The notes beneath the pieces were generated by a model. It made no database searches and was not told the origin of the DNA. It was given only the letters and a program-made list of their open reading frames with translations. A stretch of 64,000 nt of DNA. Origin: Syntrophorhabdaceae bacterium. GTDB taxonomy: Bacteria; Desulfobacterota; Syntrophorhabdia; Syntrophorhabdales; Syntrophorhabdaceae. This document shows positions 23,782 to 25,965 of this stretch, piece by piece (the stretch's first letter is position 1; every line of letters starts with the position of its first letter). A program made the position numbers and the translations under genes. The stretch covers positions 1 to 64,000 of the forward strand of contig DASXUJ010000011.1 in the NCBI GenBank assembly GCA_036504895.1, written 5' to 3'.

Positions 23782-25965
23782 ATGAGTGGCTTAAAATATT
23801 TTATGGGAATTCACGAGAAGACAAAAATCAAAAAGAGGAGCCGGGTTGAACGCATTCTCGGCTGGTCTCTCTCCCTTGTCGCCGCCGCCAGTCTCTTCGG
23901 GACCCTTCTTCTCCTCCATGACCACCTTGCCTATACCTCGCATATCACGGCCCTTACAAAAGGGCGTGCCGTCGACAATACGGACAAAGCGGCCCGGAAA
24001 ATAGACGACACATTTAAGAAGTATATGCGCGTCGCCCATCTCCTCGCTACGGAATTAAACGATATGGGGAAATATGACGACCATGAGATCCTGGGTAAGA
24101 TAAAAACGATTGTCGAGGGGGACCCCCATATTCACGGCCTCGGCGTTGCATATGCGCCCTATGCGTATAAAAAAGAGGTCAGGCTCCATGCGCCCTATTA
24201 TTCGAGGAGAGAAACCGCTCCCGAGCTCAGCCGGATTGAGTCCTATTACGATTACACCTTACCTGAACATGAGTGGTTCTCTCTTCCCATGAATCAGGGC
24301 GCCTTGTGGATCGAACCCTATTTCGGCACCGCCGGCGCCACCCTCATGACCACCTATTCAGTGCCTTTTTCAAAAACAGACCCGGTGACGAAAAAACAGG
24401 TATTCGGAGGCGTGGTCGCCCTCGACATCTCACTCACTCAAATAAAGAAGATAGTCGAATCGATTGATCTCGGCTCCGGTGGATATAGTGCGATCATGTC
24501 TAAACAGGGTGTGTACCTGTACCATCCCAACTACGAATTCGTAAGGAATAGAAAAACAGTCTGGGATGTAAGCAAGACCTTTCACGACAGGGACAGGTTC
24601 ATCGCCGCGGAGAGGACAGTGAGAGGAGAATCGGGGATTATGGATCATAAGAGCACGACGACAGGACAGCTCTCGTGGCTCCTTTACAGGCCCATCCCTT
24701 CGGCGAGCTGGTCTATCCATACTACCTTCATCAAGGATGATATACCAATCGACCTCGACGTGCTCAGGCATAAGTTGATACGTATCGTAACCCTCTCCAT
24801 CGTATTCCTTCTCACTCTTCTCTGCCTTGTTTGCGGCGTCCAGAAAGGTATCGAGGGTAAGCTATGGGTGGCCTGTTTCGTCTCATCCCTGATTTTTGTG
24901 GCAGGGATAGGATGCCTGTGGCACCTTGCCCTCTCCTATGATACGGACCTCAAGTCTCAGGGGCCGAAGATAGTGAGCCGTGCCAGCCTCCTCAACTTCA
25001 CCAACTCCTACGATCTAAACTCACGGGAAACCAGGGCGAATAGGCCTCTTTACGTGCCGACAGGCATGTTTATCCATTCCATGGAGTTCTCCGGTGCGAA
25101 TAAGCTGGCGGTAAACGGCTATATCTGGCAAAAATATCCGTCCAATCTCGACAGGGAGTACGCCATGGGCTTTGTCCTTCCTGATGCAGTCGACGAAGTG
25201 AGGGTGAAGGAGATATACTCCCGTAAATTGGATGATATGAATGTCTTAGGATGGCACTTTTCCGGAACCCTTTACCAGCATTTCGATTATTCGAAATATC
25301 CTGTTGACCACGAGGTTATCCGGATACGGCTCGCCCCGAAGGAGATCGGCAGGAATACGGTGCTCGTGCCCGATCTCGACTCTTATAAACTCATGAACCC
25401 GGGTTTCCGTCCGGGGCTGGAAAAGACTTTCGATTTACCGGACTGGAAGATCGAACGGACCTTTTTCGAGCTGGTGTCGAAAGATTACGATACCAATTTC
25501 GGAATCAAAAATTACCTGGGCAGGGATATGATCCCGGAGCTCTATTTCAATGTCGCCATCGTGCGAAATCTGATGGATGCCTTCATACGTAACATGACGC
25601 CCCTCATCATCGTGGCGCTCCTCCTCTTTGCCGTCATGTTCATCTCGACGGAAGAGAGGATGTCGAGGAAATTCTCCATGGACATCGGTGAAAATCTGGT
25701 ATTTGTGGGCTCCATGTTTTTCGTCCTCATCTTTGCCCATATCAGCACCAGGGGAAGGATTCCGACCCAGGAGATCTTCTACCTTGAATATTTTTACCTC
25801 ACCATGTATGTCGCCCTCCTATGGGTGCCCATAAGCTCCATTCTTTTCGTTACGGGAAGCACAAAATTTCACGTCCAGTACAAAGAGAATCTGATATCGA
25901 AGCTCCTTTACTGGCCGGTGATTCTCGGCGCCCTCTACGTCCTGACCGTGGCCACCTTTTTTTAA
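23782..25965 (+). CDS. dCache sensor fused to pentameric ligand-gated channel-like module
   Basis: A 727-residue inner-membrane protein. Residues 27-46 form a membrane helix, 47-325 a periplasmic double-Cache sensor (WIEPYFGTAGATLMTTYSVPF, GGVVALDISL, GVYLYHPN), 332-352 and 361-383 two more helices, and 384-595 a beta-rich periplasmic domain. The last 130 residues hold exactly four helices (about 597-622, 637-655, 666-690, 707-725) with almost no C-terminal tail. The beta domain contains KYPVDHEVIRIRL (505-517), matching the Pro-loop (FPxDxQ) of Cys-loop/Pro-loop receptors. The sequence before helix one (PELYFNVAIVRNLMDAF) and the short M2-M3 link fit the channel family. No kinase, cyclase or HAMP domain is present. 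The channel reading is inference from motif and topology; a ligand and ion cannot be named. Confidence 0.65.
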   Translation: MSGLKYFMGIHEKTKIKKRSRVERILGWSLSLVAAASLFGTLLLLHDHLAYTSHITALTKGRAVDNTDKAARKIDDTFKKYMRVAHLLATELNDMGKYDDHEILGKIKTIVEGDPHIHGLGVAYAPYAYKKEVRLHAPYYSRRETAPELSRIESYYDYTLPEHEWFSLPMNQGALWIEPYFGTAGATLMTTYSVPFSKTDPVTKKQVFGGVVALDISLTQIKKIVESIDLGSGGYSAIMSKQGVYLYHPNYEFVRNRKTVWDVSKTFHDRDRFIAAERTVRGESGIMDHKSTTTGQLSWLLYRPIPSASWSIHTTFIKDDIPIDLDVLRHKLIRIVTLSIVFLLTLLCLVCGVQKGIEGKLWVACFVSSLIFVAGIGCLWHLALSYDTDLKSQGPKIVSRASLLNFTNSYDLNSRETRANRPLYVPTGMFIHSMEFSGANKLAVNGYIWQKYPSNLDREYAMGFVLPDAVDEVRVKEIYSRKLDDMNVLGWHFSGTLYQHFDYSKYPVDHEVIRIRLAPKEIGRNTVLVPDLDSYKLMNPGFRPGLEKTFDLPDWKIERTFFELVSKDYDTNFGIKNYLGRDMIPELYFNVAIVRNLMDAFIRNMTPLIIVALLLFAVMFISTEERMSRKFSMDIGENLVFVGSMFFVLIFAHISTRGRIPTQEIFYLEYFYLTMYVALLWVPISSILFVTGSTKFHVQYKENLISKLLYWPVILGALYVLTVATFF

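Follow-up and report, generated by a model that had tools for sequence, protein, structure and literature searches.

The window, that is, the whole 64,000-nucleotide stretch of contig DASXUJ010000011.1 that was analyzed, encodes, in one ATG frame, a 727-aa protein (Table 1), and a genome search found the gene to be single copy in its own genome. The start codon could be either residue 1 or residue 8; no clear ribosome-binding site was detected at the start of the ORF, and residues 1 to 15 are of low confidence in the structural model. Both flanking genes are oppositely oriented, the upstream one (minus strand) being kinase-like and the downstream one (minus strand) an SppA-type peptidase as read by eye, and no conserved operon was found around the gene. 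From N to C terminus the protein consists of TM1, a periplasmic double Cache (dCache) domain, TM2, a short cytoplasmic turn, TM3, a beta domain, and four helices. The full-length AlphaFold model, built from 57 sequences, has a mean pLDDT of 90.7 and a pTM of 0.85. In this model, a long helix (residues 21-94) comprises TM1 and a periplasmic helix, the two-lobed alpha/beta dCache domain runs to about residue 322, TM3 is followed by a helix at 400-416 and then by the beta domain up to residue 595, and the four C-terminal helices leave a tail of one residue. The initial annotation had described a complete periplasmic dCache domain framed by membrane helices and, behind it, a beta-rich domain with a KYPVDHEV Pro-loop, four helices, and a minimal tail. 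The AlphaFold layout, together with a dCache_1 match above the Pfam cutoff, bears out this description, except that M2, which had been placed at 637-655, is modeled at 635-659. Pfam, NCBIfam, and PDB searches of the 727-aa protein indicated no enzymatic output domain, as had also been proposed.

Table 1. Features of the probable dCache-channel fusion gene (positions in the window)
Feature	Position	Strand	Basis
dCache-pLGIC fusion gene, 727 aa	23782..25965	+	ORF; orthologs and relatives
TM1 (residues 21-50 of long helix 21-94)	23842..23931	+	AlphaFold helix; hydropathy in relatives
Periplasmic double Cache domain (residues 57-322)	23950..24747	+	Pfam dCache_1 2.5e-13; PDB 3li8/3lib by sequence and fold
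TM2 (residues 325-350)	24754..24831	+	AlphaFold; present in intact fused relatives
Short cytoplasmic turn TM2-TM3 (residues 351-357)	24832..24852	+	AlphaFold; topology from relatives
TM3, apparently the conserved M0 helix (residues 358-385; W362, W380)	24853..24936	+	AlphaFold; W380 conservation
pLGIC-type extracellular (periplasmic) domain (residues 386-596)	24937..25569	+	hhalign 98.3%; Foldseek GLIC/ELIC
GYIWQKY motif, counterpart of loop D Trp region	25117..25137	+	Conservation; hhalign alignment with YLxxxWxD
Pro-loop motif YPVD (residues 506-509)	25297..25308	+	Conservation in 57 relatives
beta9 core Trp W555	25444..25446	+	W in 54/57; aligned with GLIC W of GWDIES
Pre-M1 Arg R595, partner of Pro-loop acid	25564..25566	+	56/57
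M1 (residues 597-622), kink P607	25570..25647	+	AlphaFold; P607 in 49/57
M2, predicted pore helix (residues 635-659), R657	25684..25758	+	AlphaFold; HMM alignment; conservation
M3 (residues 667-690); conserved E669, Y676	25780..25851	+	AlphaFold; conservation
M4 (residues 704-726), C terminus outside	25891..25959	+	AlphaFold; SBP_bac_5 after M4 in relatives

The N-terminal half was identified in a profile search of the 727-aa protein as dCache_1 (50.6 bits, E 2.5e-13; Pfam cutoff 45). Its nearest solved relatives by both sequence and fold are PDB 3li8 and 3lib, and Foldseek with the full-length model retrieved 3lib at 3.5e-14 with a TM-score of 0.79-0.80 by target length. In the alignment with 3li8/3lib, the aromatic pair W165/F166 and D215 lie at positions shared by dCache_1AA and dCache_1AM. 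Position 163, compared by eye, is His where we take the amino-acid pocket motif to have Arg, and because that motif is not intact, no ligand is predicted. Among near relatives, the Cache domains most similar to that of the window protein (about 28-36% identity) belong to dCache-HAMP-PP2C (SpoIIE-type) phosphatases from the same bacterial family, and this sequence proximity suggests that the sensor of the window protein was recruited from Cache-HAMP-phosphatase-type receptors.

Assigning the C-terminal half to the pentameric ligand-gated ion channels (pLGICs) is complicated by the weakness of direct matches. No Pfam Neur_chan match was detected among 58 relatives scanned at E 0.01, NCBIfam LGIC_1 gave only E-values of 0.003-0.03, far under its cutoff, and neither the single sequence nor five close orthologs produced a significant pLGIC match against Pfam, NCBIfam, or PDB. 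The direct matches are weak because the family is divergent, and profile-profile and family-profile searches reach GLIC significantly; a match to the channel LBD and TM profiles, as envisaged in the initial annotation, was thus absent with the Pfam models and present with these searches. In a profile-profile comparison (hhalign) with a reference set of ten canonical bacterial pLGICs from the window's phylum, the C-terminal module aligned over 257 columns with a probability of 98.3% (P 1.8e-14), against 0.1-0.3% for column-shuffled, reversed, and Cache-half controls. Searched against PDB, a family profile of 56 sequences gave E 4.2e-7 for a GLIC-GABA-A chimera and 5e-6 to 1e-4 for GLIC chains, the aligned span extending from the Pro-loop to M4. 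The structural evidence points the same way: Foldseek with the full-length model recovered the GLIC fold at 4e-11, and with the C-terminal module alone, for which the AlphaFold model has a pLDDT of 87.3, 50 of the 50 best PDB matches listed were pLGICs (TM-score 0.64-0.78 by target length), giving the GLIC/ELIC-like form of the channel-like fold that had been anticipated. The number of C-terminal helices was likewise expected to be constant, and exactly four follow the pre-M1 region in 57 of 57 aligned relatives. The gene product is very probably one subunit of a bacterial relative of the nicotinic, GABA-A, and GLIC-type channels.

The most conserved pLGIC residues have been tabulated (PMC4795631, Table 1), the Pro of the beta6-beta7 [F/Y]PxD motif being absolutely conserved, and these signature residues are mostly present in the window protein. 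Within the Pro-loop (residues 505-512), the 57 relatives have Y or F at Y506 and P at P507 without exception, and at D509, which follows V508, they have D (49) or E (8). The position of W555, matching the beta9 core aromatic, is W in 54 of the 57 and otherwise Y or F, while the pre-M1 R595 is kept in 56 and the M1 P607 in 49; the corresponding frequencies across pLGICs are 71%, 94%, and 77% (PMC4795631). R595 and P607 are 12 residues apart, as are R192 and P204 of GLIC. Also common in pLGICs are a cationic residue at M2 0' (79%), a Pro between M2 and M3 (88%), and Leu/Phe at 9' (PMC4795631). At the M2-M3 Pro position the window protein has P661, yet only 10 of 57 relatives have P there; no conserved R/K was found near M2 0' among the 57, and F/L at 646-647 fits 9' in a register uncertain by one residue.

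Other conserved positions are family-specific: GYIWQ, P530-D531, M2 653, M2 R657, and M3 E669. The G, Y, W, and Q of GYIWQKY are invariant in the 57 relatives, and hhalign aligns the motif with YLxxxWxD. Conserved polar positions in M2, which the initial annotation had suggested looking for, do exist, since position 653 is always H or Q (57/57) and R657 is invariant (57/57), the latter being aligned by the HMM with R19' in the GABA-A alpha1 portion of 5osa. The amphipathic pattern, or helical periodicity, of M2 is not significant, so no pore-lining claim is drawn from it. Cues to selectivity conflict, with a Glu at about -1' (cation-like) in the window clade and an Arg at about 19' in all members, in a register that is uncertain. 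The stretch from the M1 Pro to P661 is about 11 residues longer than in GLIC, reflecting a longer M1-M2 loop; this loop (residues 625-635, window 25654-25686) also exceeds that of many relatives by about ten residues and is modeled as a short cytoplasmic helix.

Fused members of the family share the order TM1-sensor-TM2-TM3-extracellular domain (ECD)-four TM helices, and the spacing of TM2, short turn, and TM3 is kept. Stand-alone members (16 in the tree, about 372-444 aa, from several phyla) have no Cache domain and keep the order M0-ECD-M1-M4. Two tryptophans, W362 and W380, are common to TM3 of the fused proteins and to the pre-ECD helix of the stand-alone ones, W380 being found in 15 of 16 stand-alone and 36 of 37 covered fused rows. 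Because these residues are shared and no signal-peptidase site is visible by eye, TM3 was treated as a fifth helix, M0, of the channel module, and to judge from the alignment it is apparently a conserved and uncleaved part of it. A cytosolic-type TPR domain precedes TM1 in the Spirulina member (L052), and three Anaerolineales proteins have a long extension past M4, which a scan of L062 identified as SBP_bac_5 and with which L067 and L086 align. Both additions fit an N-in/C-out topology with seven helices. The three Anaerolineales proteins (L062:4714-8655, L067:4669-8859, and L086:4684-8880) would have three potential ligand-binding modules per chain, with the solute-binding domain on the outside end of the channel. 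A cleavable signal peptide was also considered for M0 and ruled out, as no A-x-A-like site was seen by eye and Trp380 is conserved.

Species genomes from many phyla, isolates included, yielded at least 80 relatives that share the C-terminal module, and orthologs of the window protein share 54-57% identity with it. Among 58 scanned members, stand-alone ones counted in, 43 matched dCache_1. The fused state occurs in 40 of 56 tree members, from many phyla, and a quick tree requires only two changes between fused and stand-alone states, from which we infer that the fusion is old and has been largely kept. The module is rare in the window's phylum, detected by the family profile in 6 of 297 genomes (one of the six being a PBP-fused pLGIC), versus 10 of 297 detected by the Pfam LBD model. 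In L092, L098, and L099 the frame stops before the homologous match does, suggesting frameshifts in the TM region that may reflect pseudogenes or sequencing error.

Genes for solute-binding proteins occur no more than two genes away from several fused members. SBP_bac_5 genes adjoin L039 and L083, and Peripla_BP_5 genes adjoin L026, L037, and L040; Peripla_BP_4 genes are near L062 and L086, PBP_like_2 or SBP_bac_3 genes near L058 and L092, and SBP_bac_3 plus dicarboxylate symporter genes near L094. Tasneem et al. 2004 (PMC549065) reported a neighborhood of this type for bacterial pLGICs. One Cache-pLGIC gene is followed, 15 bases downstream, by a canonical-type pLGIC gene (L046:7021-8115; Neur_chan_LBD 1.5e-6) whose product also starts with a hydrophobic helix, and a hetero-oligomer or paired channels are possible products of this pair. 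A canonical LBD search of the phylum of L046 gave three matches in two genomes, in frames of 319-372 codons, too short for a Cache fusion. Further neighbors include a two-TM potassium-channel-like gene (Ion_trans_2 + TrkA_N; L050:3874-4941) 42 bases upstream of the Cache-pLGIC of Thioploca, a 1395-residue TIR + WD40 repeat protein (L031:642-4826) encoded 22 bases upstream of that of Microcystis, and an eCIS_core-domain protein (L089:4559-5746) just upstream of a stand-alone channel member.

The homology and fold of both halves, their helix number and topology, and their conservation across the family frame a model in which the protein probably forms a homopentameric channel of the cytoplasmic membrane whose gating is regulated by periplasmic ligands of the dCache domain. 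The pore would be lined by five copies of M2. Above it, the beta domain would serve as the orthosteric extracellular domain, with the Pro-loop acid D509, the pre-M1 R595, and the M2-M3 loop providing the coupling to the pore. TM1-dCache-TM2 would constitute a second, separate, membrane-bound ligand sensor, giving the channel two sensory inputs together with the pLGIC receptor domain. Binding of a Cache ligand would displace TM2, as it does in Cache kinases and chemoreceptors, and this movement would be relayed through the short cytoplasmic turn to TM3/M0 and the start of the channel ECD, tuning opening, so that the output would be an ion flux or a change in membrane potential rather than phosphorylation. 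Counted against this model are the lack of family-wide conservation of the M2 0' cationic residue and the M2-M3 Pro, the nonsignificant amphipathicity of M2, and a mismatch of symmetry, since the usual working form of Cache sensors is a dimer and the channel would contain five copies.

The main rival, which we regard as unlikely, is that the pLGIC fold acts here as a nonconducting receptor, with the beta domain and the four helices serving for sensing or as a scaffold and no ion-selective pore opening. Such a role would suit an M2 in which two features of most pLGICs, the basic residue at 0' and the M2-M3 Pro, are not conserved, and whose candidate pore face is mostly hydrophobic from about 9' to 16' and has no significant periodicity; however, the channel DeCLIC also has hydrophobic constrictions at 9' and 16' (PMC9897478), the residues that the family does conserve (YPxD, pre-M1 Arg, M1 Pro) are those of gating coupling, and the M2 Arg and H/Q are invariant. 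It is less probable again that a working pLGIC carries a dCache domain uncoupled from gating, there to anchor the protein, bind a partner, or modulate assembly. The Cache-less members of several phyla imply that the channel module works alone, and the link is a membrane-crossing hairpin, with the Cache domain not stacked on the receptor domain, but persistence of the fusion over most of the tree and the maintained TM2-turn-TM3 spacing speak for coupling.

We consider it very improbable that the pLGIC likeness of the C-terminal half is superficial and this half an unrelated membrane module with a beta domain and four helices: the silence of Pfam Neur_chan and of the single- and five-sequence PDB searches would be expected of such a module, but profile and fold evidence, which are independent, both indicate a pLGIC. 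We give least credence of all to an assembly artifact fusing a Cache receptor gene with a channel gene, for although the majority of members come from metagenome-assembled genomes (MAGs), the same helix order recurs in intact fusion ORFs of many independent assemblies, among them records not labeled as MAGs, from Pseudoalteromonas luteoviolacea MMG009, Brasilonema, and Microcystis.

Extending the homopentameric channel model to the family yields a broader picture that we offer tentatively, at somewhat below even chances: a widespread, unannotated pLGIC clade would have a five-helix core of uncleaved M0 and M1-M4, and in most of the members found, a membrane-framed dCache domain would gate the pore via the TM2-turn-M0 hairpin, rerouting a sensor-kinase-like transmembrane signal to a pentameric channel, with a mismatch in symmetry between Cache dimer and channel pentamer. 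If true, the conserved M0 helix, together with the membrane hairpin that links Cache to channel, would represent a coupling geometry without description in the literature examined. Pfam and NCBIfam leave this whole branch unlabeled as channels. A 2016 inventory, in which terminal regions were discarded, states that none of the pLGICs of unicellular organisms has a known biological role (PMC4795631). The clade links pLGICs to Cache sensors, for which ligand screens are feasible on isolated domains, and to neighboring solute-binding proteins, offering a direct route to the natural ligands and functions of such channels.

Several known systems share parts of this architecture. The dCache-HAMP-PP2C phosphatases frame their Cache domain with TM1 and TM2 in the same way, but their output, as read by eye, is a cytoplasmic phosphatase, whereas TM2 of the window protein returns through the membrane to the channel. 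A census of Cache domains names VWA_N and VGCC_alpha2 as the only channel-type partners. GLIC and ELIC have the fold of residues 386-727 and the signature of Pro-loop, W, R, and M1-Pro, but have neither a Cache domain nor an M0 helix. DeCLIC, the only pLGIC with a partly characterized extra N-terminal domain (PMC12664993), resembles the window protein in having a large periplasmic module at its N terminus, which in DeCLIC modulates gating (PMC9897478, PMC12664993); that module, however, consists of two jelly-roll lobes packed on the receptor domain rather than a Cache domain, and no added membrane helices are described. Another sensor-pLGIC fusion, Peripla_BP_6-pLGIC, is found in the window's own phylum (L116:205-2391; family profile E 1e-12, with the channel part missed by Pfam at 1e-4), and in it a periplasmic-binding-protein fold is joined directly, whereas in the window protein a Cache domain is joined with two helices.

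The closest precedents are the prokaryotic pLGICs with N-terminal MCP-N and Cache domains that Tasneem et al. predicted in 2004 (PMC549065) for Methanosarcina, Cytophaga, and Microbulbifer, MCP-N having later been counted as part of Cache (PMC4822843). As in the window protein, a Cache-type sensor precedes the pLGIC receptor domain and four-TM channel. None of the three genera is represented, by motif-based matches, among the at least 80 relatives. The LBDs of the 2004 fusions were found through profile searches from animal receptors, whereas the window family is missed by the Pfam LBD model. In the text of that paper, the additional domains sit between the signal peptide and the LBD, with mention of neither a TM2/TM3 pair nor M0. 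The novelty claimed in the initial annotation is accordingly narrowed, Cache-fused prokaryotic pLGICs having been in print since 2004, and what would appear new relative to that text are the two linking helices, the conserved helix before the receptor domain, and how far the clade extends. The window protein represents a pLGIC clade that is divergent and unannotated, marked by a conserved M0 helix and a Cache domain framed by membrane helices.
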